Positions 2,702-18,063 of a DNA stretch of 64,000 nt are shown piece by piece (within the stretch, counting starts at the first letter, position 1; each line of letters starts with the position of its first letter). Location of the stretch: assembly GCA_016194585.1 (NCBI GenBank), contig JACQBG010000028.1, positions 1 through 64,000 on the forward strand, in the 5' to 3' direction. The notes below the pieces were generated by a model, which ran no database searches, was not told where the DNA came from, and saw only the letters and a program-made list of their open reading frames with translations. This DNA comes from Gemmatimonadota bacterium (GTDB lineage Bacteria; Gemmatimonadota; Gemmatimonadetes; Gemmatimonadales; Gemmatimonadaceae). Made by a program: the position numbers and the translations under genes.

Positions 2702-4669
2702 ATGGACGACCTCCACCCGCGCCGCGCCTGGCATCCGCTGACGGCGGCGTTCGTCGCGACGCTCCTCGCGCAGGTGGCCGGACTGTTCGCCCACTACTTC
2801 GGCACCGACGACGGCGGGCACCGCGTGTTCTCGTCGCCGCTCAACATGCTGATGATCGCGGTGCCGCTGTACGTCAGCTGGTGGTTCCTGATCGCTGCGG
2901 CGTTCGCGGTGCTGTGGATGGCGGTGCCGCGACTGCGCGCTGCGGTCACGGCGACGGGGTTGGCGCTGGCCTTCGCGCTGCTCTGGCTCGTGCCGGCCGA
3001 TTTCGCGATGCAGCACTTCCGCGGGGAACGACTCACGCTCGCCCAGATGCGCGACTACGGGCTCAGCGCTCTGTTCAACAGCGACGTCGCGGGGCCGGTG
3101 CTGCGGCATCCCTGGTATCCCGCCGTCACACTCGGGATCCCGCTGGCGGCGCTGCTGCTGTTCGCGTGGCTCTGGCGCGCGGCGCGCGGCCGCCTCGCGC
3201 ATCCGCCCTCGTGGCGCGGCGCTGGGGCGAGCGTCGTGATCGCTGCGGCATGCTACGCGCCCACGATGTTCGCGTACTACCACCAGCGCGACATGGCGCA
3301 GCCGCCGGAGGTGGACTGGGCGCTACAGCTGCTGCCGCGCGCGCCGGCCCCGGCGCCGGCCCAAGAGGCCGCCAGCCGGTCCGAGCTTCGCGGCTTCCTC
3401 GACCCACGTGGGACGGCGACATGGCTCAGCGACTCCTTCCCGCTCATCCGGTCGGGTGGAGGCGCCGGCGCGGCGCCCGTTGTGGAGCGGAGCGACCTCC
3501 CCGACATCGTCGTCTTCGTCGTCGAGTCGCTGCGGGGGCGGGACGTGGGCTACGGCCTATATCCGCCTGCGCCGGGCGCGTCGCCCACGCCCCGACTCGA
3601 CGCGCTCGCGCGGGAGTCGGTGGTCTTCCCGCGCTACATCGCCAACGGGGAGCCGACTCCGCGGGGATTCATCACGATCAACACGGGCGTGTGGGAGCAC
3701 CGGAGCGGGTTCATCACCGCCGACTTCCCCAATCTGCAGCTCGACGCACTGCCGAACCGCCTGCGGAAGCACGGTTATCACACGATCGCGCTGTGGGGCG
3801 CCAATCCGAGCTTCGATAACGAGCTCGCATGGGCGCGCCGCTGGTACGATGAGGTCGATTTCGAACTCCCGGGGAACGGCCTGTTCTACTTCCACACGCG
3901 CCCCGACACGCTCGTGATGGACCATCTGCTGCAACGTCTGCGGGCCCACGACGCCGCGGCGCCGGAGCAGCCGGTGTTCGCCTATGTCTCGACGAACGGC
4001 ACGCACACACCCTACCAGCCGGAGGACGGAAGCGCGCAGCCGGGCGATGGGCCGGCCGCGCGATATGCGCGCTGCCTGCGGCACATCGATGGCCAGATCG
4101 GACGCGTGCTCGACTTCCTCCAGACGCGCCGGCGGGCGGCGAACACCATCGTCGTCGTCATCGGCGACCACGGCGACCGCACCGACGAATCGTATGACGA
4201 GCGGTTTCGCGGGCTGCCCAACGACGCCGCGGTGTGGACGGCGGCGCTCGTGCACGGGCCGGCGCGATTCGTGGGCGCGCCGCGGCGCGAGCAGTTCACG
4301 GCCAGCCACGTCGACCTGTTCCCCACGGTGATGCGCTGGATCGGCGACACGGCGCCGCGCGTGACGTTCGGGCAGGACCTCTTCGCGCCGATCCCGGAGC
4401 ACGAGCGCGTCGCGGTCTCGATCAACAGTCGAGGCTACCGGCTCGATCGGGACGGCTACACGCTGCTCGTCGACCGCGGCGACCCGGCGCATGCGCTCGC
4501 GTTCCCCTCCTTCCCGCGAGGGCAACCGGCGCCGGTGCCACTCTCTCAGACCCCGTTCGCACCCGACGATGCGCAGCGACTCGTCGGGCGGATCGAGTAC
4601 TGGGCGGGACTGATCCAGCAGGATCGCGTCTGGCGCGACCGGTTCGACGGCGCGAGTCGACTCAGGTGA
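2702..4669 (+). CDS. Membrane-bound alkaline-phosphatase-superfamily (sulfatase/LtaS-like) transferase
   Basis: A 655-residue protein with about five N-terminal transmembrane helices (residues 12-200) and a large exported catalytic domain (about 260-610), like LtaS and phosphoethanolamine transferases. Catalytic landmarks are IVVFVVESLRG (first metal site), GEPTPRGF with a likely nucleophilic Thr, STNGTHTPYQP, and VVVIGDHGDR with metal-binding Asp and His. LtaS/EptA-type enzymes transfer phosphoglycerol or phosphoethanolamine from lipids to surface polymers. The gene is convergent with, and overlaps by 8 bp, the cytidylyltransferase of the phosphonate operon. Transfer of 2-aminoethylphosphonate from a lipid to a glycan is a reasonable but untested idea. 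A hydrolytic role cannot be excluded. Confidence 0.8.
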   Translation: MDDLHPRRAWHPLTAAFVATLLAQVAGLFAHYFGTDDGGHRVFSSPLNMLMIAVPLYVSWWFLIAAAFAVLWMAVPRLRAAVTATGLALAFALLWLVPADFAMQHFRGERLTLAQMRDYGLSALFNSDVAGPVLRHPWYPAVTLGIPLAALLLFAWLWRAARGRLAHPPSWRGAGASVVIAAACYAPTMFAYYHQRDMAQPPEVDWALQLLPRAPAPAPAQEAASRSELRGFLDPRGTATWLSDSFPLIRSGGGAGAAPVVERSDLPDIVVFVVESLRGRDVGYGLYPPAPGASPTPRLDALARESVVFPRYIANGEPTPRGFITINTGVWEHRSGFITADFPNLQLDALPNRLRKHGYHTIALWGANPSFDNELAWARRWYDEVDFELPGNGLFYFHTRPDTLVMDHLLQRLRAHDAAAPEQPVFAYVSTNGTHTPYQPEDGSAQPGDGPAARYARCLRHIDGQIGRVLDFLQTRRRAANTIVVVIGDHGDRTDESYDERFRGLPNDAAVWTAALVHGPARFVGAPRREQFTASHVDLFPTVMRWIGDTAPRVTFGQDLFAPIPEHERVAVSINSRGYRLDRDGYTLLVDRGDPAHALAFPSFPRGQPAPVPLSQTPFAPDDAQRLVGRIEYWAGLIQQDRVWRDRFDGASRLR

Positions 4670-5387
4670 TGGCGGCGCGCGCCAGCGCTTCGGCGCGCGC
4701 GACATCCTCGGGAAAATCGATCTCGACCCACGGCAGGCCGTCGGTGGGCACGGCGCGCACGTGCACGTCGGGCAGGAGCGACGCGAGCGCGTCCTCGTAT
4801 CCGCCGGACGTCGCTCCAGCCGCGACCTGACGATCCACGGCGGCGCGGAGTCGTGCCGTGGCGTCGGCCGCGAGGCGCGCGAAACCCACCCACTCGCCAG
4901 TCTCCTCGTGCCCCGACACGAGGGCGCGCCGCAGGGTGCGCACGCGGCCGGCGTCGAGCCCCGCCATGTATTCCTCGCCGGTGAACGACGAGCCGATGTC
5001 GACGAGGAGCACGTTCGGGTGCGGCGAACGCACGAGGCGCTGCAAGAGCGCCGGGTGGAAGAACACGTCGCCGTCGAGCAGCAGCAACGCGTCGTCCACG
5101 GCTCGCAGACCGACGGCGAGCGAGACGATGCTCCCCAGCTCGTACTCGTCGTTCACGAGCACGTCGCACGGCGCACGCGGCGCACGCGGCGCGGCGGCAC
5201 GCACGCACGCGCGCACAGCGTCGGCGCGGTAGCCGGCGACGACGGTGGTCGCGACGCCGAGCGCGTCGAACGTCGTGAGATACCGCTCGAGCAGCGTCAC
5301 GCCACCGATGGGCAGCAGGCACTTCGGCGGCTCGTGCACGGCGCGGAGGCGCGTCCCGCGCCCTGCCGCGAGGATGACCGCCCTCAC
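4662..5387 (-). CDS. LicC/PntC-like sugar- or phosphonate-nucleotidyltransferase (probable CTP:2-AEP cytidylyltransferase)
   Basis: A 241-residue nucleotidyltransferase with a complete signature: AVILAAGRGTRL, then PPKCLLPIGG, the nucleotide-binding region VNDEYELGSI and LLLLDGDVFF with the metal-binding Asp. The start is the GTG inside the TGA of the transaminase gene (GTGA overlap). The frame stays open much further upstream, but that part lies over the transaminase in another frame. LicC-type enzymes make CDP-choline; the related PntC enzymes make CMP-2-aminoethylphosphonate. Being the last gene of an operon that makes 2-AEP, and near a CDP-alcohol phosphotransferase, points to 2-AEP as substrate. 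The substrate is inferred from context. Confidence 0.8.
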   Translation of the reverse strand: MRAVILAAGRGTRLRAVHEPPKCLLPIGGVTLLERYLTTFDALGVATTVVAGYRADAVRACVRAAAPRAPRAPCDVLVNDEYELGSIVSLAVGLRAVDDALLLLDGDVFFHPALLQRLVRSPHPNVLLVDIGSSFTGEEYMAGLDAGRVRTLRRALVSGHEETGEWVGFARLAADATARLRAAVDRQVAAGATSGGYEDALASLLPDVHVRAVPTDGLPWVEIDFPEDVARAEALARAAIT

Positions 5388-6454
5388 GCGCGCAACCGGC
5401 GCTCGAGCGCGTCGAGGAAGCCGGTGACCTCGTCGAGGCCGAAGTGCCCGATGAGGCCCAGCCGGAATGCCCGCGCCTTGAGCGCGCCCTGCGCCGCGTA
5501 GATCACGTACTCGCGCGCCTTCAGGTCCCGGTGCAGCGAGGCGTAACTGTGCCCCTCGGGGAGATGGCAGGAGATGAGGGTCGATCCGTACGCGGCGCGG
5601 TCGAGCAGGAAGCGGATCCCCATGCCGTGGAGCCGTTCCTGCACCAGGCGCATGAGGGCGCGGTAGTGCGCGATGCGCGCTTCCACGGTCTCGTCGAGCG
5701 TCTCGCGCAGCGCTTCCCGCAGCGCGAACAGCGCGTGCACCGGCGGCGTGAACGGCGTCTCGCCCCGCTCCTCGGCGGCGAAGTGCTCGGCGAGATTCGA
5801 GTAGTGCGCGGCGCGCTGTCGCTGCGCGGACGCCAGGAAGGCGTCGCTCGCGATGACGAACGCGGCGCCGGGCACGCCGCGGATACACTTGTTGGCGCTG
5901 CCGACGATGGCGTCGAGCCGCCAGCCGGTCACGTCGACGCGTTCGCCGGCGATGCTGCTCACCGTGTCGGCGAGCACCATGCAGCCGCGCGCCTTGCCGA
6001 CGGCGGCGAGCCGCTCGAGGTCGTTCAGGCGCCCCGTCGCCGTCTCGTGATGGACGAGGTAGAGCGAGGCCGCGCCACTCTTGGCGAGCTGCTCGTCGAG
6101 CAGGGCGGGGTCGATCTCGTCGCCCCACGGCAGCGTCCATTCCCGCACCTCGGTGCCGTGGTGGCGTCCCATGGCCGCGGCGCGTTCGCCGTAGGGTCCG
6201 TTGGAGACGACGAGCATGGGGCCGAGCGGGCGCGCGGCCGCGGCGACGGCCTCGATGCCGACCGAGCCGGAACCACCGAGGACGACGGCGTGGTAGCCAT
6301 CGTCGGCGCCGAGGCCGGCGACGCGAAGCAAGTCGGCGCGCACGCCGGCGAGGAGTTCTGTGAACTCCTCGTCGCGGTGGCAGATGTCCGGCGCCAGCAG
6401 TGCCCGGCGCACGCGCTCGGAGATGTTGGAGGGGCCCGGCGAGAAGATGATCAC
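5384..6454 (-). CDS. phnW: 2-aminoethylphosphonate:pyruvate transaminase (AEPT, PhnW-like)
   Basis: A 356-residue class V, PLP-dependent aminotransferase. It begins IIFSPGPSN, has GGSGSVGIEA near residues 60-70, HHETATGRLND, and the PLP lysine at K189 inside SANKCIRGVPG, the PhnW-type signature. It interconverts phosphonoacetaldehyde and 2-aminoethylphosphonate. PhnW is often catabolic, but here it follows PEP mutase and phosphonopyruvate decarboxylase and no phosphonatase (PhnX) is present, so the biosynthetic direction is favoured. The GTG start overlaps the TGA of the decarboxylase gene, and its own TGA overlaps the GTG of the next gene. Both junctions suggest translational coupling and matched expression. 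Confidence 0.92.
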   Translation of the reverse strand: MIIFSPGPSNISERVRRALLAPDICHRDEEFTELLAGVRADLLRVAGLGADDGYHAVVLGGSGSVGIEAVAAAARPLGPMLVVSNGPYGERAAAMGRHHGTEVREWTLPWGDEIDPALLDEQLAKSGAASLYLVHHETATGRLNDLERLAAVGKARGCMVLADTVSSIAGERVDVTGWRLDAIVGSANKCIRGVPGAAFVIASDAFLASAQRQRAAHYSNLAEHFAAEERGETPFTPPVHALFALREALRETLDETVEARIAHYRALMRLVQERLHGMGIRFLLDRAAYGSTLISCHLPEGHSYASLHRDLKAREYVIYAAQGALKARAFRLGLIGHFGLDEVTGFLDALERRLRA

Positions 6455-7611
6455 CGTCGTGCGCTCCGGCGCGCGAGTTCGTCGCGAAAACGGCGGGCCA
6501 CGTCGGGAGGCGCCACCGCGGGCCGCCCGAGTGACGGGTCGGTGCTGGTGGCCACCGGCACGTGGATGAGGTGCGGGCCTCGCTCGCCGAGCGCGCGCTG
6601 CAGCGCCGCGCGCAGCGGCTCTGCTCCGGTGACCGAGCAGGCGCTCGCGTAGCCGCAGGCCGCGGCGATCTCGGGGAAGCGGACGGACGTCGAGACGGTC
6701 GCCTGTCCGCCGGTCGATTCGTAGGACGCGTTGTCGAGGATCACGTGGACGAGTCGCGGCGGCGCCTGGTCGCCGATGCTGGCCATCGCTTCGAGCCGCA
6801 TCAGGGCGGCGCCGTCGCCGTCGAGCACGACCACCGGCTGGTCGCTCTCCCGCGCGACGCCGAGGGCGAGACTCGAGGCGCACCCCATCGAACCCACCAC
6901 GTAGAAGTGCGACGGCCGGTCGCGGTACTCGAAGAGTTCGCGTCCGGTCTTCCCCGTGGTCGCGACGATCAGCGCCTCGCCGGCCTGCTCGGCGATGAGC
7001 GCGATGGCCTCGCCACGCGACAGCATCGGGCCGGACGAGACGGCGGCGACCAAGCGCCCCGGTGCGCGCGGCGACGCCGGTACGCGCGGCTGCGGTGCGT
7101 ACTCGGTGACGACGTTCTTGCGCAGCACGAAGGCGAACGGGAGTCCCGTGCGCTGCATGTGGTCGAGCGCGGCGTCGACCGCGGGCACCACGTCGCCGTC
7201 CCGCGATGGGAACCACGCGTGCTCCACCGCGAGCAGCCGCAGGAGATCGCCGGTGGCGCGGCCCATGAGTTCGTGCTGCGGCTCGTCGACCTTCCCCGGC
7301 TCGCCGCGCAGCGTGACGATGATCAGCACCGGGATCTTGAAGACGTAGTTCAGCGACGCCAGCGGGTTGACGAGGTTTCCGAGTCCCGAGTTCTGCAGCA
7401 TCACGACGGGGCGGCGCCCCGCCAGTTGGGCGCCGCTCGCGAGCGCGAGCGCCTCCCCTTCGTTCGTGGCGGCGACGTACGAGAGGTCGTCGCGGTCGAT
7501 CACGTAGTCGATGAACGGGCGGAGGAACGAACAGGGCACGCCGACGTACGGACCGAAGCCGCGCGCCGTGAGCGTGTCGACGAAGAGGCGCGACGAGACG
7601 CGGTCGCTCAT
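6451..7611 (-). CDS. ppd: Phosphonopyruvate decarboxylase
   Basis: A 386-residue thiamine-diphosphate-dependent decarboxylase. The N-terminal Pyr domain has GVPCSFLRPFID and the conserved NEGEALALASG (Glu near residue 51). The C-terminal PP domain has the ThDP/Mg motif, GDG at 265-267 with the paired Asn at 294 (ILDNASYEST). This pattern and length match Ppd/AepY rather than sulfopyruvate decarboxylase subunits. The reaction, phosphonopyruvate to phosphonoacetaldehyde plus CO2, makes the unfavourable PEP mutase step effectively irreversible. The ATG start shares ATGA with the PepM stop. It is the second gene of the operon. Confidence 0.93.
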   Translation of the reverse strand: MSDRVSSRLFVDTLTARGFGPYVGVPCSFLRPFIDYVIDRDDLSYVAATNEGEALALASGAQLAGRRPVVMLQNSGLGNLVNPLASLNYVFKIPVLIIVTLRGEPGKVDEPQHELMGRATGDLLRLLAVEHAWFPSRDGDVVPAVDAALDHMQRTGLPFAFVLRKNVVTEYAPQPRVPASPRAPGRLVAAVSSGPMLSRGEAIALIAEQAGEALIVATTGKTGRELFEYRDRPSHFYVVGSMGCASSLALGVARESDQPVVVLDGDGAALMRLEAMASIGDQAPPRLVHVILDNASYESTGGQATVSTSVRFPEIAAACGYASACSVTGAEPLRAALQRALGERGPHLIHVPVATSTDPSLGRPAVAPPDVARRFRDELARRSARR

Positions 7612-9287
7612 CGGGCCACCAGCCGGCAGGCGCGCTGGTAGTCGTCGAAGGAGTGGATCTCGAGCCACCCCGACGTGACTTCCACCGCGACGACGCTCGT
7701 GCCGTCGTCGATGAGCGCTTGCAGCAGGTCGGTGAGCGAGGCGCGCGCGAACGAGTCCGCTTCGTGCAGCGGGGCGTCCGGTGCGGCGGTCCGGCGCCGG
7801 TCGTATTGCGCCAGCAACGCGCGCCACCCGGCGGGGGAGAACAGGGCGAAGCCGGCGAACTCGCCGTGGGCGCCGTCGGCACCGATGCTCTTTCCGATCG
7901 CACTAACGACGGGGAGCACGCCGCTCCGCAGGAAGCGGCGGTCGGGCGCCGGCGCGCCGGCGAGATGCACGAGATCGCGCCGCTTGTCGTCGCTGTTGTC
8001 GCGGGCGACGTGGCCGCGATCCACGACGACGGCGACGTCGGCGTCGCTCCGCAGCAACGTGCGCACGAGGTCGGCGTCGAACATCAGGTCCCCGTAGAGG
8101 ACCAGGACGCGCGCCTCCCCGGCGGCTCCGCCGGCGGCGGGGACGGCCATCAACGACGCCGCCTCGCCCGTCGTCGCCCACTCGGCGTTGTGCACGACGG
8201 TGACGCCGTCGCAGGCGACGGCCTCGTGGCGATAACCCGTGACGACGGTTATGTCCCGCACGCCGGCGTGGGCGAGGGATTCCGCCTGGCGCTGGAGCAG
8301 CGACTTGCCGTTCACGTCGAGCGCGGCGAGGGGGATGTCGACGGCGAGCTGCCGCATCGACGGCGCATCGCGGTGGTCGCCCGCGCTCAGCACGATGGCG
8401 CGCACCGGCGGGCCGCTCACGCGCAGGTAGTCGCGCTCGGCACGCTCGAGCTCCGGCATCCCCTGCAGCTCGAACAGCTCGCGCATCGGCGCGATCGCCG
8501 ACTCGACGTTCGCCGTCGACCCGTCCGCGGCGATGCGGCGGAACGTGTCGTTCATGGCGGCGACCGCGGCCCGCAGCCCCTGGTTCGCGTAGATCACCAT
8601 CTTCACGCCGAGCGATTCGAGCTCGGCGGCGGTCACCTGCGGGTACGCGGTCGGCACGACGACCACCGGCACGCGCGCCGACCAGCGGGCGAGGAACTCG
8701 CGCAGGCCGGCGCCGGCCGGATCCTTGTCGTGCACGAGGATCGCGTCCGCGCCGGCCTGCACGTAGGCGTCGGCGCGCCGGAGCGCCTCGGCGACCGGCC
8801 ATCCCGCGATGAGCGCCTCGATCCGCGCGATGACGGTGAACTCCGCGGTGCGTTGCGCGTTCTTGGCGGCGAGGATCTTCCCGACGAACTCGGCGACCGA
8901 CGCGAGCTCCTGCCGGCCCGGCGTGAAGCTGTTCACTTTCGGGAAGAGCTTGTCCTCCATGCACACCGCGGCGATCCCCGCCGCCTCGAACTGCCGCACC
9001 ATGCGGATGACGTTGTTCGAGTTCCCGTAGCCGGTATCGCAGTCGGCCACCACGGGGATGTCGACCGCGTCGGCCATGCGCTGGGCGGCGGCGAGGTAAT
9101 CGGACATCGTGAGGATGCTCGCGTCGGGCACCCCGTGCGAGGTGGAGATCTCGAAGCCGCTCGACCACACCCCCTCGAAGCCGTGTCGCTCGGCGAGCTT
9201 GGCGCCCAGCGCGTCGTGCGCCCCGACGAGGCGGATCATGCCCGGGGCGGCGAAGAGCGAGCGAAGGCGGCGTGCGGAATCGCGCAT
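7608..9287 (-). CDS. pepM: Phosphoenolpyruvate mutase fused to a nucleotidyltransferase-like domain
   Basis: A 559-residue two-domain protein. Residues 1-290 are PEP mutase (isocitrate-lyase superfamily): GAHDALGAKLAE, the Mg-site DCDTGYGN (82-89) and the diagnostic EDK-x5-NS motif at 111-120 (EDKLFPKVNS), which separates true PEP mutases from their relatives. This enzyme forms the C-P bond, turning PEP into phosphonopyruvate. Residues about 295-559 have a nucleotidyltransferase fold (VRAIVLSAG, VLVLYGDLMFD), but the usual GxGTR loop is replaced by AGDHRDAP. That domain may be inactive or altered in specificity. The start is the ATG at residue 36 of the open frame, right before the conserved N-terminus. 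First gene of the coupled operon. Confidence 0.95.
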   Translation of the reverse strand: MRDSARRLRSLFAAPGMIRLVGAHDALGAKLAERHGFEGVWSSGFEISTSHGVPDASILTMSDYLAAAQRMADAVDIPVVADCDTGYGNSNNVIRMVRQFEAAGIAAVCMEDKLFPKVNSFTPGRQELASVAEFVGKILAAKNAQRTAEFTVIARIEALIAGWPVAEALRRADAYVQAGADAILVHDKDPAGAGLREFLARWSARVPVVVVPTAYPQVTAAELESLGVKMVIYANQGLRAAVAAMNDTFRRIAADGSTANVESAIAPMRELFELQGMPELERAERDYLRVSGPPVRAIVLSAGDHRDAPSMRQLAVDIPLAALDVNGKSLLQRQAESLAHAGVRDITVVTGYRHEAVACDGVTVVHNAEWATTGEAASLMAVPAAGGAAGEARVLVLYGDLMFDADLVRTLLRSDADVAVVVDRGHVARDNSDDKRRDLVHLAGAPAPDRRFLRSGVLPVVSAIGKSIGADGAHGEFAGFALFSPAGWRALLAQYDRRRTAAPDAPLHEADSFARASLTDLLQALIDDGTSVVAVEVTSGWLEIHSFDDYQRACRLVAR

Positions 9288-9361
9288 GCGGGCGGTCGTG
9301 GGTCGGGGAAGCACTCGGAGTTGCGACGCGCCGGAGCGCGCACGTCCGCGCCGGACGACGA

Positions 9362-9367
9362 AATGTA
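9362..9367 (-). promoter_or_regulatory. Candidate -10 (TACATT) for the phosphonate operon
   Basis: On the minus strand TACATT precedes the pepM ATG by about 75 bases in the 183-bp divergent region shared with the CDP-alcohol phosphotransferase. It resembles other -10 candidates in this window (TACAAT, TATACT). No convincing -35 is visible, so this is tentative. Confidence 0.3.
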
Positions 9368-9417
9368 GACGGCGCTCGCTCGCACGCGCCATGTAGCCGG
9401 ACCGTGTGTCGCCTCGC

Positions 9418-9423
9418 TATCCT
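9418..9423 (+). promoter_or_regulatory. Candidate -10 (TATCCT) for the CDP-alcohol phosphotransferase
   Basis: TATCCT sits 47 bases before the ATG at 9471 in the divergent intergenic region. The divergent layout would let a single regulator coordinate headgroup synthesis and headgroup transfer. The match is weak. Confidence 0.25.
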
Positions 9424-9470
9424 TCGATCATGCGCCCACCTGCCACCGTCTGCTCGCGCGTGACGAACTG

Positions 9471-10520
9471 ATGAGCGTGCCGACCCGTGAGCCGGCTGGC
9501 GACACCTCGTACAAGTTCACCGATCGTTCGCTCGCCCGTCCGGCGCTGACGCGGATCTGGTTCGAGCGGCTCTTCCCGCTGCTGCCACGCTGGATGGCGG
9601 CGAACGTCGTGACGCTGCTCTCCACCGGCGCGCTGCTGGCCGTGCTCCTCCTCTCGCTCGAGCCGGCCCGTTGGCCGCTGTCGCTGCTGGCGCTGGTGTA
9701 CTTCGGGGCGATGCAGGTCTATGTCGCGGGTGACCACCTCGACGGCATGCAGGCGAAGGCGAGCGGCACCACGTCGCCGCTGGGGGACTTCCTCGACCAC
9801 TATTGCGACCTCTGGGCGGGGTGCATCCTCGTCTTCGGCTTCTGGACGCTGCTCGTCACCTCGAGCCGCGGCACGCTGTTCTTCATGGAAGCGTTGCTGA
9901 TCCTCGGCTTCGGCGTGACGTACGCGGAACGGGAGGAGCGCCGCGCCCTCCACTTCACGCGCTACGGGACGCTCGAGGCGATCGTGGTGCTCACGTTCGT
10001 CTCGGCGTCATGGGTATTCGCCGGCGCCCGCGCGTGGTGGCACGCCGAGCTGGCGTGGGGGGTGCCGCGGTACGCGCTGATCGTGCTCACGGGCGCCGTC
10101 ATGGCCGCGGGCGCCATCGTCGTCATCCTGCGTCGCATGCGCGGCGTGCCGGCGCCGGTCGCGCTCTTCGGGGCCGCACTCGCGGTGCTGTGGATGCTGC
10201 TCGCCCGGCGCGCCGACGTGGGGCCGGTGGCGGGGTGGTTCCTCATGGCGGCGTACGGCGCCGTCTATGTGGCGCGTGTGATGCACGGCCATCTCGTGCC
10301 GGGCTCGCGCAGCTGGCCCGACCGGGCGGCGACGGTCGCCCTGTTCGCGCTCGCCATCTGGCTGTGGACGGCAGAGCCGGCGGCCGGCGACGCACGCACG
10401 GCGATCCTCTTGCTCGGCGCGTACCTGGCGGTCTCCGCCACGCTCGCGCTGCTGCGCGTCGTCGCCGGTCTGCGCCGCTACTGGGTGTGGGTCAACGCGA
10501 CCCGCGCCACAGAGCCCTGA
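9471..10520 (+). CDS. CDP-alcohol phosphotransferase, eukaryotic choline/ethanolamine-phosphotransferase type (candidate CMP-AEP:lipid transferase)
   Basis: A 349-residue polytopic membrane protein. The CDP-alcohol phosphotransferase signature is complete at residues 91-113: DG-x2-AK-x8-G-x3-D-x3-D, with Lys96 where Arg is usual. The segment SPLGDFLDHYCD resembles the SSPLG...DH.CD block of eukaryotic CPT1/EPT1/CEPT, which use diacylglycerol and CDP-choline or CDP-ethanolamine, rather than bacterial PgsA or PssA. About eight to ten hydrophobic helices follow. With a 2-AEP operon and a LicC/PntC-like cytidylyltransferase next door, the likely donor is CMP-2-aminoethylphosphonate and the acceptor diacylglycerol or ceramide. 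Family is certain, donor and acceptor are inferred. The 3' end overlaps the convergent oxygenase gene by 29 bp. Confidence 0.88.
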   Translation: MSVPTREPAGDTSYKFTDRSLARPALTRIWFERLFPLLPRWMAANVVTLLSTGALLAVLLLSLEPARWPLSLLALVYFGAMQVYVAGDHLDGMQAKASGTTSPLGDFLDHYCDLWAGCILVFGFWTLLVTSSRGTLFFMEALLILGFGVTYAEREERRALHFTRYGTLEAIVVLTFVSASWVFAGARAWWHAELAWGVPRYALIVLTGAVMAAGAIVVILRRMRGVPAPVALFGAALAVLWMLLARRADVGPVAGWFLMAAYGAVYVARVMHGHLVPGSRSWPDRAATVALFALAIWLWTAEPAAGDARTAILLLGAYLAVSATLALLRVVAGLRRYWVWVNATRATEP

Positions 10521-11244
10521 TCCCGAAGTAGGCGACGACGTCCTTCACGTTCGAGACGAGCCACGCGAACGTGCCCATGCGCTGGTCGGTGACGTACTCC
10601 ATGGAGAGCACGATGCGCCGTTCGCCGGCGCCGCTCGGCGTGACGGCGTGCCAGAGCGTGTCGCCGTTGAACAGCACGAGCGTGCCCGGCACGGTGTGCA
10701 CCGAGACCCGCTCGGTGGCCCGGGACGCGTCGCGCTTGTACAGGTCGCACACGAGCCGGCAGCTCGACTGCTCGACGAGGCCGAGCAGCACGGTGAACCG
10801 CTTCCCCTTGTAGAACGACGTGTCGTAGTGGAAGCCGATGTGGTCGCCGGGCTCCGTGTAATAGTAGAGCGCGCAGGCGTGCGGATCGCCGTCGGGGCAG
10901 GGGAGCAGCCGCTCGCGCGTGATGCGGCTCAGCAGGTCGATGAAAGCGGGCGAGCGATACAGCGCTACGATGGAGGGCGCCCGCTTGCGCAGGTCGAAGT
11001 AGCTGACGCTCCCGCCCTTCTTCACCCCGGGCACGTAATTGCGATTGATCGCCGCCTGCATCGCTTCCGCTTCGGCGACGAGCGGCTCGAGCGCAGCGCC
11101 TTCGAGGAATCGCTCGGCGACGACCATCTCGTCCTGCGCCCAATAGCGAGCGTGTCCCGTCGCGTCGTCGAAGTGCCACGGCGGTGCGGCCGCCGGCACT
11201 CCGGAGGCCGTTTCACTCATCGGGTCGCTCGTCGCGCCAGCCAT
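10492..11244 (-). CDS. Fe(II)/2-oxoglutarate-dependent oxygenase
   Basis: A 250-residue double-stranded beta-helix dioxygenase. The metal facial triad is visible: H139-x-D141 in GFHYDTSFYKGKRF and H199 in FNGDTLWHAV. The 2-oxoglutarate-binding Arg is R209 or R210 (ERRIVLSMEY). An alternative start at residue 9 (11220) is possible. These enzymes hydroxylate carbon centres using O2 and 2-oxoglutarate. Its place in the phosphonolipid neighbourhood suggests hydroxylation of the 2-AEP headgroup (giving 1-hydroxy-2-AEP) or of a sphingoid or fatty chain; the substrate is unknown. The C-terminus overlaps the convergent phosphotransferase gene by 29 bp. Confidence 0.85.
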   Translation of the reverse strand: MAGATSDPMSETASGVPAAAPPWHFDDATGHARYWAQDEMVVAERFLEGAALEPLVAEAEAMQAAINRNYVPGVKKGGSVSYFDLRKRAPSIVALYRSPAFIDLLSRITRERLLPCPDGDPHACALYYYTEPGDHIGFHYDTSFYKGKRFTVLLGLVEQSSCRLVCDLYKRDASRATERVSVHTVPGTLVLFNGDTLWHAVTPSGAGERRIVLSMEYVTDQRMGTFAWLVSNVKDVVAYFGIRALWRGSR

Positions 11245-11365: not shown

Positions 11366-13402
11366 TCACGCACGCGCCGCCGGCGGTTGCGCGGTGTGGC
11401 GCGCACGGTACACCCACACCGTCGCGATCGCGAACGTGAGCAGGTACGTCCCCTGCTCGGCGAGCGGCCACATCGCTTCACCCGACGCACCCGCGAGGCG
11501 GACGATCCACACCGCGGCGAACCGGAGTCCGGTATAGGCGAACATCGCCGCGACGAAGGCGCGTGTTGGAGCGGTACGAGTGACCCACCAATTGAGCAGG
11601 AGCAGCAGCGGGAGCTTCAGCAGGATCATCGGGAGCATCCACCCCACCTTGAACTCGACGACGTCGGCCGGCAGCACGCTGTAGAGGAAGCCCCACTCCA
11701 GCCCGCCGTCGAGCCACACCGAGGTCAGGGTGAAGGCGCCCGAGATGACGAGCGCGTCGGTCCAGCGCGGGTCGGCATGGCGCCGGGCCAGCAGCACGGC
11801 GGCGAGGAAGAGGTCGATCCACGCGTATTCGAAGAGCGGCAGCCGCAGCGTGAAGTAGAGTACCACGTAGCCGAACGCGGCGATGGCCAGCGCGCGATCG
11901 ACATCGCTGCGGGCGAGGCGGTAGGCCGCCAGCGCGACGGCGATGGCGCCGAGGAAGACCCAGGGCGTGTCCCAGACGCGGAACTCGACGAGGCTGAGCG
12001 CGAGCGTCACCACGGCTGCGCGCACGGGGCGCTTCCACCCTGTGAGCGTCAGCACGAGGAACAGCTTCGCCACCGACCCGGCGGCGTAGAGCGGTGCGAG
12101 CTCGGCGCCGAGGAGCGGCACTCGAAGCAGCCCGCCATCGTGCGCGCCGTACACGAAGCGCGTGGCGAAATACGCGCCGATGAGCATCACCGCGGCGGCG
12201 CTGCGCCAGTGTCGCCGCGTCATCGTGGCCCCGGCGACGACGGCGAGGAACGGGAATGCCGACCACGACGCGTCGATGAGCCGCTGCGCGAGCAGCTCGG
12301 CGACGAACACCGCGGCGATGAGCCACCACACCGACGTCGCCGCTGGCATCGATCCGCCGTCGATGGCGAGCATGAGGATCACCGTGCCGGCGACGAGGAA
12401 GAGCGCGAAGAGCGCATAGTCGCGCAGGTCCCGGCTGGCGTGCGGTGGCGCGAGCGCCGCCGCGGCCTCGCGCGTCGGCGCGAGGGGCAGGAAGCGTGAA
12501 AGTTCGGCGACCTGATACGGAGCCTGGTGGAGTTCGAGGCCGAGCGCGTGGCTCAGGATCAGCCGGATGTTGGCGATCGGCAGGGGACGGAAGACGACTC
12601 CCGGCGTGACGTCGGGGCCGATGAACAGTCCGAAGGTCGGCACGGAGAGCCCCGTCTTGTGCTGCCCGGTCTCGCTCTGCCCGTGGTCGCCGAACACGAC
12701 GAGATAGTCGTCGGGCTTCCGGGCGGCCGCGAAGCGCCCGATGAGCGAATCGATGAATGCGTACTCCGCCGCGTACCGTGGCGCCCGTACGCCGACCTCG
12801 TGGCCGGTCCAGTCGCCGCCTTCGTAATGGCAGATGATGAGGTCGAAGCGCTCGCGCGCGTACGCGCTGAGCGCGATCTCCGGCCGCTCGCGATCGAGGG
12901 TGTACTGGTCCGCGCTCCCTTCCACGGGGAGGCGCGTCTCGAACACCGAGCCGAACTGCACGAACGGGTCGACGCCGACCACGAGCGACGACTTCCCGGC
13001 GCGGCGGAGGTCGAGGAACACCGACTCCACCGGCAGCGCCGTGAAGTGGAAATTCTCGATCGCGTTCATGAGCTGGGCTTCGGCCTTGCCGGAGAGTGCG
13101 GCGCGGATCGACGGGATCGAGAACCCCTCGAAGGCGCCGTCGACCTCCCCCGAGGCGCCCGTCGCGCGCAGACGCGCGAGGATCGGCATCATCTGCGCGT
13201 CGGTCGCCGTCTCGCGGCGGAGCCCGTCGATGAGCAGCACCAACACGCGGCTCCGCTTCGTCGTATCGACGCCGGTGAGCCCGCGCGCCACCCGGTCGGC
13301 GGGCCGGTTGACGGAATCCGCGACCGACAGGCACCCGATGGCCGTGGCGCCGCAGATGACGGTGAAGAGGACGCGCGAGCGGAGGAGTCTGTGGCGGAAC
13401 AC
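11366..13402 (-). CDS. Alkaline-phosphatase-fold protein with polytopic C-terminus, GPI-ethanolamine-phosphate-transferase-like layout
   Basis: A 678-residue protein: one N-terminal membrane segment or signal (residues about 10-28), an exported catalytic domain (about 50-330), then about ten transmembrane helices. Metal-site landmarks are VLVLLIDGLRRE, HYEGGDWTGHEVG and VVFGDHGQSETGQHK. The nucleophile position appears to hold Ser (EGFSIPSIRAALSG) rather than the usual Thr. A catalytic domain first and membrane helices after is the order seen in GPI-ethanolamine-phosphate transferases (PIG-N/PIG-O), and the reverse of LtaS/EptA. Moving an aminoethylphosphonate or phosphoethanolamine group from a lipid to a glycan would fit the context. 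A phosphodiesterase is the alternative. Confidence 0.75.
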   Translation of the reverse strand: MFRHRLLRSRVLFTVICGATAIGCLSVADSVNRPADRVARGLTGVDTTKRSRVLVLLIDGLRRETATDAQMMPILARLRATGASGEVDGAFEGFSIPSIRAALSGKAEAQLMNAIENFHFTALPVESVFLDLRRAGKSSLVVGVDPFVQFGSVFETRLPVEGSADQYTLDRERPEIALSAYARERFDLIICHYEGGDWTGHEVGVRAPRYAAEYAFIDSLIGRFAAARKPDDYLVVFGDHGQSETGQHKTGLSVPTFGLFIGPDVTPGVVFRPLPIANIRLILSHALGLELHQAPYQVAELSRFLPLAPTREAAAALAPPHASRDLRDYALFALFLVAGTVILMLAIDGGSMPAATSVWWLIAAVFVAELLAQRLIDASWSAFPFLAVVAGATMTRRHWRSAAAVMLIGAYFATRFVYGAHDGGLLRVPLLGAELAPLYAAGSVAKLFLVLTLTGWKRPVRAAVVTLALSLVEFRVWDTPWVFLGAIAVALAAYRLARSDVDRALAIAAFGYVVLYFTLRLPLFEYAWIDLFLAAVLLARRHADPRWTDALVISGAFTLTSVWLDGGLEWGFLYSVLPADVVEFKVGWMLPMILLKLPLLLLLNWWVTRTAPTRAFVAAMFAYTGLRFAAVWIVRLAGASGEAMWPLAEQGTYLLTFAIATVWVYRARHTAQPPAARA

Positions 13403-13627: not shown

Positions 13628-16600
13628 ATGCCGTGGCACGTCATGCCCGTCCCGAACTCTGATCCCCAGCTCAAGCCCGACGACGCGCGACGCGCGGGCG
13701 TGCAGTCGCTGGTCGACGTGCTCGAGTACCGCGCCGCGACGCACCCCGACGACGTGATCTTCCGGTCGCTCCGCGGCGACGGCAGCGAGGGCGGTTCGAT
13801 CAGCTTCGCCGGGTTGCAGCGCCGCAGTCGCGCCGTCGCGGCGGAGCTGCGCGACTACGTCGTGCCGGGCGACCGGGTCGTGCTCCTCGTGCCGCCGGGC
13901 CTCGATTACGTCGCCGCCTTCTTCGGGTGCCAGTACGCGGGGGTGGTGGCGGTGCCGGCCTATCCGCCGAATCCGCGCCGGGTCGACGCGCGCGTGGCGC
14001 GCATCGTCCGCGACTGTGGCGCGCGCGTCGCGCTCGTCGCCCCGGACCTGATCGCCCGGCTCGACGAGTGGCTCGCCGTCACGCCCGAGCTGCGGGACGT
14101 GAGCTGGCTCGACATCACCCGCCTCGAGCAGGGCACGGGCGCGTGGCGCCATCCCGGCATCACGGCGGCGTCCCTCGCGATGCTCCAGTACACGTCCGGC
14201 TCCACGGCCGAGCCGCGCGGCGTGATGATCTCGCAGGGGAACCTGCTCCACAATCTCGCCGTGATCCATCGCGTCACGGCGCACCGCGAGGGCGATCGCG
14301 CGGTGTTCTGGCTGCCGCCGTTCCACGACATGGGACTCATCGGCGGCATCCTCGAGCCGATCTATGCGAACATCCCGACCGCCCTGATGTCGCCCGCGTC
14401 GTTCATGCAGCGCCCCGTCCGGTGGCTCGAGGCGATCGCGCGGTACGGCGCGACCACCACCGGCGCGCCCAACTTCGCGTACGACCTCTGCGTCGATCGC
14501 ATCGCCGCCGGGGAATGCGACGGCCTCGATCTCTCGTCGCTGCGGACCTCGTTCAACGGCGCCGAACCCGTCCGCGCCGACACGATGACGCGCTTCATCG
14601 ACCGGTTCGCGCCCTACGGCCTGCGTGCCGACGTGATGCTCCCCTGCTTCGGGCTCGCCGAGGCCACGCTGTTCGTCTCCGGCGGCCCCTCCCGCCGCCC
14701 GCTCTCGGTGGTGAGCGCCGACCGCGACGCCCTGCAGGCGGCGTCGCTGCGCTTCGGCGACGAGCCCGACTCCGACGTGCCGCTCGTGCCCTCCGGCGAG
14801 CCGGATCGCGAGTTGCAGGTCGTGATCGTCGACCCCGACACCCGCGTGCCGTGCAGCGCCGGCCAGGTCGGCGAGATCTGGATCGCCGGCGACAGTGTGG
14901 CGACGGGCTACTGGAACCGCCCCGCGCTCACCGAGGCGACGTTCGGCGCACGGCTCGCCGGCTCGGAGACCCGCTTCCTGCGTTCGGGCGACCTCGGCGT
15001 GTTCACCGGCCGCGAGCTGCTCGTCACCGGACGGCTCAAGGACCTGATCCTCATCGAGGGGCGCAACTATTACCCGCAGGACATCGAGGTGAGCGCCGGG
15101 CGGTCTCATCCGGCGCTGCGTGCGGGCTACATCGCGGCGTTCGGCGTGCCGGGCGCGAAACGGGAGCGCCTCGTCATCGCCGCCGAGGTCGGGCGCCATC
15201 ACGACGCGTCGCAGAACGGGCGCCTGTTCGACGCGCTGCGCACCGCCGTCGCCTCGGACGTCGGCGTCGTGCCGGACGAGATCGTGCTGCTCGACGCGCA
15301 CTCCATCCCGCGCACGTCGAGCGGCAAGATCCAGCGCCGCGCCTGCCGCCTGGCCTACTTCGAGGGGACGCTCGAACGCGTCGGCCAGTGGACGGCGCCG
15401 GGGAGCGACGTCGCGCCCCCCGCCGAAGCGGTCGCCGCGTTCATCCTCGATTGGATCGCTCGTGAATTGCCCGCCGACCCGGTGCGGCTGCACGCCGGCG
15501 CATCGCCGCGCGATCTCGGCCTCGATTCGCTCTCCGTGACGCTGCTCACCGTGGTGCTCGAGGAACGGCTGCACCGCAAGGTAACGCCGGCGGAGGTCTG
15601 GGAGCAGCCCGACATCCGCTCCCTCGCGCGTCACCTCACGCAGCCCTATCCGCTCGGCGACGCGCCGGCGCCGCGCCGCCGCTACGGGGCGCCCACCGCG
15701 GCGAGCACCGACGTCACGGACTGGGCGGAATACCGGGAGCTGCAGCGCCGGCGCGCCGACGTCGCCTCGGTGGACGGCACGCTGCCGTTCTTCCGGGCGC
15801 ACGAGGGGATGCCGGGGCGCCTCGCGGTGGTCGACGGTCGCGAGGTGCTCAACTTCTCGAGTTACAACTACCTCGGACTCGCCGGCCATCCCGGCGTGAT
15901 CGCCGCCACGCAGGAGGCGGTCGCTTCGCTCGGAACGTCGGTCTCGGCGAGCCGCGTCGTGTCCGGTGAGCGCAGCGTGCACGTTTCGCTCGAGCGGGAG
16001 ATCGCGGCCTTCCTCGGCGTCGACGCGGCCGTGGCGTACGTCGGGGGGCATCAGGCGAACACGGGCACCATCTCCCACCTCGTCGGCGCCGACGACGTGG
16101 TGCTCTGCGACGCCTGGTTGCACAACAGCGCCATGCAAGGTGCCGCGTTCTCCGGCGCGCGCCGCCTCGTGTTCCCGCACAACGACTGGCGCGCGCTCGA
16201 CGCGTTGCTGGCCCGCGTGCGCGAGGAGCACCGTCGCGCGCTCGTGCTCATCGAGGGCGTCTACAGCGCCGACGGCGACGTCCCCGACCTCGCGCGCTTC
16301 GTCGAGGTCAAGGCGCGCCACCATGCGCTGCTCATGGTCGACGAGGCGCACTCGATGGGCGTCCTCGGCGCCACGGGGCGGGGGATCGCCGAGCACGCCG
16401 GCGTGGATCCGCACGACGTGGACGTATGGATGGGCACGCTGAGCAAGTCGCTCGCCAGTTGCGGTGGCTATATCGCCGGGAGCGCCGCGCTGGTCGAATA
16501 CCTCAAGTTCACCGCGCCGGCGTTCGTGTTCAGCGCGGGGATGACGCCGGCGAACGCCGCCGCGGCGCTCGCGGCGCTGCGGATCCTGCGATGCGAGCCC

Positions 16601-16924
16601 GAGCGCGTGACGCGCCTGCGAGCGGTGGCGCGCGAGTTCGCGAACGAGGCGACGGCGGCCGGCCTCGACATCGGGTCGAGTGCCGGGACTCCGGTGGTGC
16701 CCGTACTGCTCGGCGACTCGGCGCTGGCGATCCATCTGTCCGGGCGGCTGCTCGACGCGGGAATCAGCGTCGCGCCGATGGTCGCGCCCGCGGTGCCGGA
16801 GCACCTCGCGCGCCTGCGATTCTTCATCACCAGCGAGCACACGTCGGCGGATGTCCGGCACGCGGTCCACGCCGTCCGCGACGCGCTCGAGGCCGCGGGG
16901 CGGCCGGTCGGGGTCGCGCGATGA
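13628..16924 (+). CDS. Fatty acyl-AMP ligase - acyl carrier protein - serine-palmitoyltransferase-like (alpha-oxoamine synthase) fusion
   Basis: A 1,098-residue fusion (ATG at 13643 is an alternative start). Residues about 25-590 are a fatty acyl-AMP ligase: SLVDVLEYRAATHPDD, the P-loop YTSGSTAEPRG, WLPPFHDMGLIGG and RSGDLGVFTGRELLVTGR. Residues about 600-680 are an acyl carrier protein with the phosphopantetheine serine at S634 in LGLDSLSV. Residues about 695-1085 are a PLP-dependent alpha-oxoamine synthase: NFSSYNYLGLAG, GGHQANTG, VDEAHSMGVLG and the PLP lysine K940 in GTLSKSLASCGGY. The three steps can run in cis: activate a free fatty acid, load it on the ACP, then condense it with an amino acid (serine in sphingolipid synthesis) to a 3-keto base. 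BioF/Kbl-like activity is less likely given the fused loader. Shares ATGA with the next gene. Confidence 0.9.
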   Translation: MPWHVMPVPNSDPQLKPDDARRAGVQSLVDVLEYRAATHPDDVIFRSLRGDGSEGGSISFAGLQRRSRAVAAELRDYVVPGDRVVLLVPPGLDYVAAFFGCQYAGVVAVPAYPPNPRRVDARVARIVRDCGARVALVAPDLIARLDEWLAVTPELRDVSWLDITRLEQGTGAWRHPGITAASLAMLQYTSGSTAEPRGVMISQGNLLHNLAVIHRVTAHREGDRAVFWLPPFHDMGLIGGILEPIYANIPTALMSPASFMQRPVRWLEAIARYGATTTGAPNFAYDLCVDRIAAGECDGLDLSSLRTSFNGAEPVRADTMTRFIDRFAPYGLRADVMLPCFGLAEATLFVSGGPSRRPLSVVSADRDALQAASLRFGDEPDSDVPLVPSGEPDRELQVVIVDPDTRVPCSAGQVGEIWIAGDSVATGYWNRPALTEATFGARLAGSETRFLRSGDLGVFTGRELLVTGRLKDLILIEGRNYYPQDIEVSAGRSHPALRAGYIAAFGVPGAKRERLVIAAEVGRHHDASQNGRLFDALRTAVASDVGVVPDEIVLLDAHSIPRTSSGKIQRRACRLAYFEGTLERVGQWTAPGSDVAPPAEAVAAFILDWIARELPADPVRLHAGASPRDLGLDSLSVTLLTVVLEERLHRKVTPAEVWEQPDIRSLARHLTQPYPLGDAPAPRRRYGAPTAASTDVTDWAEYRELQRRRADVASVDGTLPFFRAHEGMPGRLAVVDGREVLNFSSYNYLGLAGHPGVIAATQEAVASLGTSVSASRVVSGERSVHVSLEREIAAFLGVDAAVAYVGGHQANTGTISHLVGADDVVLCDAWLHNSAMQGAAFSGARRLVFPHNDWRALDALLARVREEHRRALVLIEGVYSADGDVPDLARFVEVKARHHALLMVDEAHSMGVLGATGRGIAEHAGVDPHDVDVWMGTLSKSLASCGGYIAGSAALVEYLKFTAPAFVFSAGMTPANAAAALAALRILRCEPERVTRLRAVAREFANEATAAGLDIGSSAGTPVVPVLLGDSALAIHLSGRLLDAGISVAPMVAPAVPEHLARLRFFITSEHTSADVRHAVHAVRDALEAAGRPVGVAR

Positions 16925-18063
16925 GCGCGCCGGTGCTCGTCCGGCGCGTGGCGTCGGCGCGCGATCTGCGCACGTTCATCGACGTCCCGTTCCGCCTCTT
17001 TCCCGCGGACCGGTACCCCAATTGGGTGCCTCCCCTGCGGATGTCCGTGGCCGACGCGCTCGACGAGCGGAAGAACCCGTTCTATCGCGACGCGGCGCGC
17101 GAACTGTTCCTCGCGTACGCCGGGGATCGCGTCGTGGGACGCATCGCGGCCATCGAGAACCGTGCGCACAACCGGTTCCACGAGGATCGCACCGGGTTCT
17201 TCGGCTTCTTCGAGTGCGTCGACGACGCGGCGGTGGCGCGCGCCCTGCTCGATGCCGCCGCGGCGTGGCTGGCGGCGCGGGACCTCCACGCGATGTGGGG
17301 CCCGATGAATCCGAGCACGAACCAGGAGTGCGGACTGCTCGTGCGCGGCTTCGAGAATCGCCCCACCTTCATGACCACGTGGAACCCGCCGTACTACGAC
17401 GCCCTCTGCGCCGCGGCCGGACTCACGAAGGCCAAGGACCTGCTCGGGTTCTGGTTCTCGGTGGAGGGCGAAACGTACGCGCCGCCGGCGTTCGTCGCCC
17501 GTCAGGCGGAGCGCGCGTTGAAAGGCGGCCGGATGACGTTCCGCGACATCAGCTTGCGCGATTTCGCGACCGACGTGGCGATCTGCTGGGAGATCTACAA
17601 CGACGCGTGGGAGCGCAACTGGGGCTTCGTGCCGATGACGCACGACGAGTTCCAGCACGCCGCCAAGGACCTGAAGATGCTGCTCCGCCCGGAATGGTCG
17701 TTCATCGCCTACGTCGACGGCATTCCGGCGGGCTTCATGCTGGCCGCGCCCGACTACAACGAAGCGCTGCGGTTCAATCGCAACGGCCGGCTCTTCCCGC
17801 TCGGGCTGGCCCGCATGCTGTGGTACAAGCGGCGCGCCAAGTCGGCGCGCGTCTTCGCGCTGGGCACGAAAGCCGCCTTCCGCTCGCGCAGCATCCTCGC
17901 GCTCTTCGCGCACGAGATCATGCGCCGCGGCCGCGCGCTCGGCGGGACCGGCGCCGAGGCGTCGTGGCTGCTCGAGGACAACACGCTCATCGTGAAGCCG
18001 ATGCTGGCGATGGGCGCCACCGAGCGGATGGCCTGGCGCATCTACCAGCGGTCGCTGCGCTGA
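16921..18063 (+). CDS. GNAT-like acyltransferase family protein (candidate N-acyltransferase / bacterial ceramide synthase type)
   Basis: A 380-residue soluble protein whose ATG lies in the stop codon of the fusion enzyme (ATGA), so the two are probably made together. Conserved-looking blocks are FRLFPADRYPNWVPPL near the N-terminus, GFFGFFECVDD, WGPMNPSTNQECGLL, TTWNPPYYDAL and NDAWERNWGFVP. The last blocks and the overall pattern recall GNAT-fold proteins, including the family to which the proposed Caulobacter ceramide synthase belongs; I could not align it. N-acylation of the 3-keto base made by the upstream fusion is the natural guess. Substrate and membership are inferred. Confidence 0.7.
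   Translation: MSAPVLVRRVASARDLRTFIDVPFRLFPADRYPNWVPPLRMSVADALDERKNPFYRDAARELFLAYAGDRVVGRIAAIENRAHNRFHEDRTGFFGFFECVDDAAVARALLDAAAAWLAARDLHAMWGPMNPSTNQECGLLVRGFENRPTFMTTWNPPYYDALCAAAGLTKAKDLLGFWFSVEGETYAPPAFVARQAERALKGGRMTFRDISLRDFATDVAICWEIYNDAWERNWGFVPMTHDEFQHAAKDLKMLLRPEWSFIAYVDGIPAGFMLAAPDYNEALRFNRNGRLFPLGLARMLWYKRRAKSARVFALGTKAAFRSRSILALFAHEIMRRGRALGGTGAEASWLLEDNTLIVKPMLAMGATERMAWRIYQRSLR

Follow-up and report, generated by a model that had tools for sequence, protein, structure and literature searches.

We analyzed a 64,000-nt stretch of DNA from a soil-type Gemmatimonadota bacterium of the Gemmatimonadaceae (GCA_016194585.1, contig JACQBG010000028.1, positions 1 to 64,000 of the forward strand; hereafter the window), in which an operon for the synthesis of 2-aminoethylphosphonate (AEP) lies beside a gene for a eukaryote-type CDP-alcohol phosphotransferase (CPT), with ceramide genes 3 to 7.5 kb from the latter. 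This locus probably encodes a phosphonosphingolipid pathway whose product is ceramide aminoethylphosphonate. A fuller version of this proposal, in which the genome specifies a complete bacterial route to sphingosine-type ceramide (1-hydroxy-)aminoethylphosphonate and the eukaryote-type CPT acts as a CMP-AEP:ceramide transferase, is a tentative extension that we judge possible rather than probable. Gene identities, the predicted fold, motifs, linkage, and co-occurrence were established directly, and from these we infer all of the substrates and reactions.

In the proposed pathway, the phosphoenolpyruvate (PEP) mutase PepM, the phosphonopyruvate decarboxylase Ppd, and the AEP transaminase AEPT would convert PEP to AEP, a PntC-like enzyme would activate AEP to CMP-AEP, and the CPT, with its 10 predicted transmembrane (TM) segments, would transfer AEP from CMP-AEP onto the 1-hydroxyl of ceramide with the release of CMP. 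Ceramide would be supplied next door by a fusion of acyl-AMP ligase, acyl carrier protein (ACP), and serine palmitoyltransferase (SPT) together with a YghO-like N-acyltransferase, with a reductase and a delta-4 desaturase encoded elsewhere in the genome. The four aspartates of the CPT would hold two Mg ions and CDP while His110, paired with Asp106, takes a proton from the acceptor, in line with the mechanism put forward for CHPT1. A 2-oxoglutarate (2OG) oxygenase probably adds a hydroxyl to the head group (giving 1-hydroxy-AEP) or to the lipid. Ceramide is a plausible acceptor because the ceramide phosphoethanolamine synthase of insects likewise belongs to the CDP-alcohol transferases.

Operon architecture

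The AEP operon occupies the minus strand in the order PepM, Ppd, AEPT, and LicC/PntC-like cytidylyltransferase, joined by 4-base overlaps (ATGA, GTGA, and GTGA), and the CPT diverges from PepM across a gap of 183 bp. Re-derivation of the genes reproduced the coordinates, strands, overlaps, and divergent CPT described in an initial annotation of this DNA, and the motifs that it had reported were recovered as well: EDK-x5-NS in PepM (present as EDKLFPKVNS) and the lysine of the AEPT motif SANKC. The nucleotidyltransferase that it had called canonical and LicC/PntC-like has an intact LAAGRGTRL...PKCL. That annotation had also envisaged a route from PEP through AEP and CMP-AEP to a lipid, encoded in about 6 kb. 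Comparative data favor the route, but its acceptor and the scope of the cluster need correction. The system is larger, including the 2OG oxygenase (shared with published clusters, at 49% identity) and the ceramide block, and both the C-terminal NTP-transferase-like domain of PepM and the ceramide genes starting at 13643 had been omitted. Where diacylglycerol or ceramide had been named as the acceptor, we consider ceramide the likelier because ceramide genes lie close to the CPT in all five genomes of the main CPT clade.

AEP synthesis and activation

The enzymes of AEP synthesis are recognizable to differing degrees. Ppd is above its curated cut-off (Table 1), PepM scores 306 bits against TIGR02320 with a cut-off of 320, and AEPT scores 293 against TIGR03301, under the equivalog cut-off of 361, with 39% identity to the AEPT of Mycetohabitans. 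In the domain fused to PepM, an alignment of the four main-clade Gemmatimonadota operons has LSAGDHRD.../L-HAG... and PL in place of LAAGxGxRL and PK, and this domain is probably not a working nucleotidyltransferase. We also weighed this domain as the activator of AEP but discounted it as the main one, because the G-x-G-x-R...PK signature is lost there and kept in the stand-alone enzyme. Phosphonate clusters elsewhere also combine fused and separate nucleotidyltransferases (PMC6697681).

The stand-alone enzyme is predicted from its sequence to activate AEP to CMP-AEP. Among solved structures, its family profile best matches the PntC-AEPT of Treponema denticola (6pd1/6pd2), which aligns over the full length at 61.5 bits, whereas LicC matches the same profile at 32.9 bits and over the N-terminal half only. 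PntC of T. denticola activates AEP to CMP-AEP, and two of its residues have been discussed (Rice 2019, PMC6697681).

A eukaryote-type CDP-alcohol phosphotransferase

The CPT is only marginally recognized by the general family profile PF01066 (CDP-OH_P_transf), scoring 22.8 for the protein and 27.9 in the genome search against a cut-off of 22, and the only credible solved relatives recovered by sequence search were the human, frog, and yeast choline/ethanolamine phosphotransferases CEPT1 and CPT1 (best 9.7e-10). An AlphaFold model built from five homologues (predicted local distance difference test [pLDDT], 80.8) matched CPT1/CEPT1 from end to end of the 10-TM fold, with Z scores of 23.2 to 26.1 over 313 to 319 residues, compared to 9.4 to 11.6 over 173 to 189 residues, or about half the length, for the bacterial and archaeal 6-TM CDP-alcohol transferases. 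The predicted fold agrees with the earlier designation of this protein as a eukaryotic-type enzyme.

All five main-clade sequences carry the motif DxxDGxxAK...GDxxDHxxD, in which D88 is the first aspartate of the window CPT. Relative to the eukaryotic D1xxD2GxxAR...GExxD3HxxD4, the four aspartates and the histidine are kept, AR has become AK, and the glutamate has become aspartate; a divergent CPT in genome G319 retains the glutamate (GExxDHxxD) but also has AK. In CHPT1, the GExxDHxxD segment contains a Glu129/His133 dyad that is missing from most bacterial enzymes (PMC10182977). The model and motif support a role in moving a CDP- or CMP-linked head group onto a lipid alcohol, although they do not identify which lipid. 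A search of plasmids for the CPT gave no match, and a collection-wide scan with the CPT alignment recovered four loci only, all in Gemmatimonadota; the patterns are clade specific, so more distant homologues are possible elsewhere.

Ceramide genes

The alpha-oxoamine-synthase domain of the fusion protein has an SPT (3a2b) as its best solved match, is 36% identical to the SPT of Escherichia coli BL21, and contains the lysine loop GTLSKS. The gene for the N-acyltransferase overlaps that of the fusion by ATGA. In E. coli BL21, the neighbors of yghO encode an acyl-AMP ligase (FAAL), an epimerase, acp, and spt, and these five genes constitute the described dihydroceramide set, in which the N-acyltransferase role is presumptive (PMC9386255). 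A ceramide-reductase-like (CerR-type) epimerase is encoded on another contig of the window genome and is 50% identical to a clustered epimerase of genome G229; a sphingolipid delta-4-desaturase-like gene adjoins it.

Variation in ceramide tailoring was also apparent. Lipid_DES genes are present in G000, G246, and G247, whereas G154 and G229 have FA_hydroxylase genes, an apparent either/or (genes concerned: L063 8156-9127, L046 202-1278, L039 18875-19579, and L040 13533-14255). We had considered the 2OG oxygenase, seen at the G000, G246, and G247 loci, as the alternative to the fatty-acid hydroxylase, but dropped this idea when a search of whole genomes also turned up the oxygenase elsewhere in G154 and G229. 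In two genomes, a beta-ketoacyl synthase gene directly follows that of the ceramide synthase (L044 2527-3804 and L046 5736-7022) and may set the acyl chain length.

Table 1. Features of the locus and associated genes of the window genome (window positions unless a locus is given)
Feature	Position	Strand	Evidence
LicC/PntC-like cytidylyltransferase, predicted CTP:AEP cytidylyltransferase	4662..5387	-	NTP_transf_3 6.7e-17; LAAGRGTRL...PKCL intact
2-Aminoethylphosphonate transaminase (AEPT)	5384..6454	-	TIGR03301 PhnW-AepZ 3e-87; SANKC lysine
Phosphonopyruvate decarboxylase (Ppd)	6451..7611	-	TIGR03297 405.7 bits (curated cut-off 312.5)
PEP mutase (PepM) with C-terminal degenerate MobA-like NTP-transferase domain	7608..9287	-	PF13714 1.6e-60; PF12804 8.5e-13; EDKLFPKVNS
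Eukaryote-type CPT/EPT-like CDP-alcohol phosphotransferase, predicted CMP-AEP:ceramide transferase	9471..10520	+	CEPT1/CPT1 matches; predicted fold; motif
2OG-Fe(II) oxygenase, phosphonolipid-cluster type, predicted head-group (or lipid) hydroxylase	10492..11244	-	Mycetohabitans match
Fatty acyl-AMP ligase/ACP/SPT-like fusion	13643..16924	+	PF00501; PF00550; PF00155
Bacterial ceramide synthase homologue (YghO-like N-acyltransferase)	16921..18063	+	33% identical to E. coli BL21 YghO along its full length (381 residues; 2.8e-64)
CerR-type (ceramide-reductase-like) epimerase, other contig	L063 9137-10159		26% identity, 6e-25, to BL21 epimerase
Sphingolipid delta-4-desaturase-like gene, adjoins epimerase	L063 8156-9127		FA_desaturase and Lipid_DES (PF08557), both above cut-off
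Membrane protein with alkaline-phosphatase/type I phosphodiesterase domain	11366..13402	-	PF01663 4.2e-13
Sulfatase/lipoteichoic acid (LTA)-synthase-like membrane protein, possibly accessory	2702..4669	+	PF00884 8.6e-32

Distribution and linkage across Gemmatimonadota

Searches of 395 genomes of the phylum recovered the CPT in six, comprising five close sequences (the main clade) and the divergent G319. PepM/Ppd are present in five of the six CPT genomes, compared to 5 of the 246 class genomes with a Ppd over the cut-off. When the window is left out, Ppd or PepM is found in four of five CPT carriers, compared to 4 of the 245 class genomes (binomial P of ∼4e-7, with kinship ignored). Within the main clade, four of the five genomes have PepM, and in three of them the AEP operon diverges from the CPT; LicC is 3' of PepM-Ppd-AEPT in one operon in three genomes, and across all five it either adjoins the CPT or is the distal gene of the divergent AEP operon. 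The conserved linkage that the initial annotation had suggested surveying was found, as the five-gene unit occurs again in L044 and L045 and with a different arrangement in L074, and this recurrence indicates linkage beyond chance. In G247, LicC and CPT are accompanied by ceramide genes while PepM-Ppd-AEPT is on another contig.

Ceramide synthase genes are widespread in the class (147 of 246 genomes), so their presence carries little information and close linkage is what matters: in each of the five main-clade genomes, 3 to 12 kb separate the gene from the CPT or from the LicC end of its operon (in G246, the other ceramide-block genes lie on a different contig). The 2OG oxygenase is found in 7 of the 395 genomes, five of which are the main CPT carriers (P of ∼8e-8 for this co-occurrence without the window); in the other two it stands beside a phosphodiesterase-like gene and sphingolipid-type genes.

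The divergent G319 locus (L074 6592-12268), found by the CPT-only search, has the order PntC-AEPT-CPT-PepM-Ppd on one strand, and its CPT is 33% identical. It is a candidate glycerophosphonolipid pathway, with diacylglycerol probably the acceptor. In G056 (L043 7856-12692), a PepM-NTP, Ppd, AEPT, and PntC-like operon lies amid polysaccharide-type genes without a CPT, and the phosphonate there is likely glycan directed.

Weighing the alternatives

Several observations weigh against a phosphonate pathway directed to ceramide. The SPT-like domain of the fusion falls under the curated NCBIfam SPT cut-offs (323 versus 640), and the amine-contacting glutamate pair of PntC (E104 and E196 of the T. 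denticola enzyme) is mixed in the window enzyme, which keeps E198 and has a LicC-like aspartate at D105. G319 has the AEP genes and CPT, and the ceramide synthase search gave no match in that genome; G229 has the CPT, LicC, 2OG oxygenase, and ceramide genes, with neither PepM nor Ppd over the cut-off. All carriers belong to one family and several are draft metagenome-assembled genomes, which limits their independence. The exceptions may represent salvage in G229 and a diacylglycerol acceptor in G319, or assembly gaps; the LicC/CPT pair of G229 may also serve another head group.

Three other explanations of the locus deserve comparison with AEP transfer to ceramide. It is unlikely, in our estimate, that the CPT puts AEP from CMP-AEP on diacylglycerol and that the ceramide genes are adjacent for another reason, such as a sugar-headed ceramide made via a GT2 glycosyltransferase. 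CPT1 and CEPT1, the closest solved folds, do use diacylglycerol, a GT2 gene accompanies the ceramide genes, and the CPT of G319 lies within the AEP operon with acyltransferase and PAP2-like genes nearby, but the tight linkage of CPT to ceramide synthase throughout the main clade argues for ceramide, and the window genome has an ordinary PssA (TIGR00473, 122 bits versus a cut-off of 107) while the CPT was not found in 14 other genomes of its genus. We regard it as quite improbable that LicC and CPT join phosphoethanolamine or phosphocholine to ceramide while AEP serves something else. G229, which retains the relevant genes without PepM, and the LicC-like D105 are what this explanation would account for; against it, LicC is part of the PepM-Ppd-AEPT operon in three genomes, its closest solved relative is PntC and not LicC, and the phosphonate-cluster 2OG oxygenase travels with the CPT. 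In addition, the five main-clade genomes gave no match to the PF01633 choline/ethanolamine kinases, other kinase families not having been searched.

The least probable of these alternatives has AEP attached to a glycan or protein at the cell surface, in the manner of capsule clusters, with the CPT acting independently. The G056 operon offers a precedent within the phylum, and AEP glycans are known in Bacteroides (PMC6697681), yet none of the genes beside the window operon was recognized as a LicD-type transferase and the CPT adjoins or sits inside the AEP operon in four genomes. Ceramide aminoethylphosphonate accordingly remains the product that we favor.

Neighboring genes

The oxygenase of the window is 49% identical (1.7e-72) to a 2OG oxygenase in a PepM cluster of Mycetohabitans. 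Next to it, the membrane protein at 11366-13402 has homologues linked to CPT or ceramide genes in all five main-clade CPT genomes and beside the 2OG oxygenase in two more. This protein and its relatives (L039, L046, L047, L064, L091, and L092), which stay with the CPT, 2OG, or ceramide genes, combine an N-terminal TM segment, a phosphatase/phosphodiesterase domain, and a multi-TM C-terminal half, a topology that recalls the glycosylphosphatidylinositol (GPI) ethanolamine-phosphate transferases; its predicted structure had a pLDDT of 55, too low for use. On the other side of the operon, the protein at 2702-4669 could move a head group to another surface molecule, and a relative of it is inside the G246 ceramide cluster (L064 6260-8167). 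Farther away, the window encodes a multi-PAS/GAF hybrid histidine kinase of 1665 aa at 44853-49850.

Implications

Together with its relatives, this locus provides a concrete candidate gene set and transferase for attaching AEP to ceramide, and with them a possible genetic explanation for a membrane lipid that shellfish, certain protozoa, and a single predatory bacterium are known to contain. It would be a eukaryote-like lipid built by a bacterium, through an SPT, a delta-4-desaturase-like enzyme, and CPT-type head-group transfer, and would carry a C-P bond that resists ordinary phosphatases. A 10-TM CPT beside PntC may also serve as a marker separating lipid-directed from glycan-directed phosphonate clusters. 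In the literature examined, we found no gene assigned to a CMP-AEP:ceramide transferase activity in any organism and no description of a phosphonolipid cluster linked to ceramide synthesis and a eukaryote-type transferase.

Comparison with known systems

The chemistry of phosphonosphingolipids from Bacteriovorax has been known since 1973, and such lipids also occur in molluscs; the head group in Bacteriovorax stolpii is 1-hydroxy-AEP. The predicted product of the window belongs to the same class as the sphingolipids of B. stolpii, in which a phosphonate is linked to C1 of the base (PMC6148460), and the AEP-ceramide of Trypanosoma cruzi (PMC5648825), although these are known as lipids and we found no head-group attachment genes named in the literature examined. 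Ceramide synthesis in the window resembles the pathway of Caulobacter crescentus and E. coli BL21 (PMC9386255) in having acyl-AMP ligase, ACP, SPT, epimerase, and N-acyltransferase homologues, but the first three are fused, and the window genome has a Lipid_DES desaturase and phosphonate head-group genes in addition. Relative to eukaryotic CPT1/CEPT1, the window CPT shares the predicted whole-length 10-TM fold, the CDP-alcohol phosphotransferase motif, and the histidine of the catalytic dyad, but differs in its low identity (∼15 to 17% by structural alignment), in the replacement of AR by AK and of Glu129 by Asp, and in its predicted acceptor, ceramide.

As in the Pnt pathway of T. denticola (Rice 2019, PMC6697681), AEP would be made and then activated by a PntC-type enzyme, with PepM-fused and separate nucleotidyltransferases coexisting; that pathway is linked to glycan machinery (such as LicD-like or glycosyl transferases), whereas the window has a CPT-type membrane transferase. 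Closest in layout are clusters of Nostoc and Burkholderia with pepM, ppd, AEPT, NTP transferase, 2OG oxygenase, and CDP-alcohol phosphatidyltransferase genes, a class already proposed for phosphonolipids (PMC5987646, citing Yu et al. 2013). Replicons of Mycetohabitans and Cupriavidus carry a matching layout, and a Roseomonas plasmid carries a version lacking the 2OG oxygenase. The window shares with such clusters the PepM-NTP fusion, Ppd, AEPT, stand-alone cytidylyltransferase, and a CDP-alcohol phosphotransferase, as well as the 2OG oxygenase of Mycetohabitans and Cupriavidus. Their CDP-alcohol phosphotransferases, however, have 200 to 231 aa and resemble the window CPT in the motif region only, the two annotated clusters show no ceramide genes, and these have an LPG-synthase-TM/HpnL-like protein of a kind not seen beside the window operon. 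Because it has a different, eukaryote-type transferase together with ceramide genes, the window locus represents a variant of the phosphonolipid cluster type.

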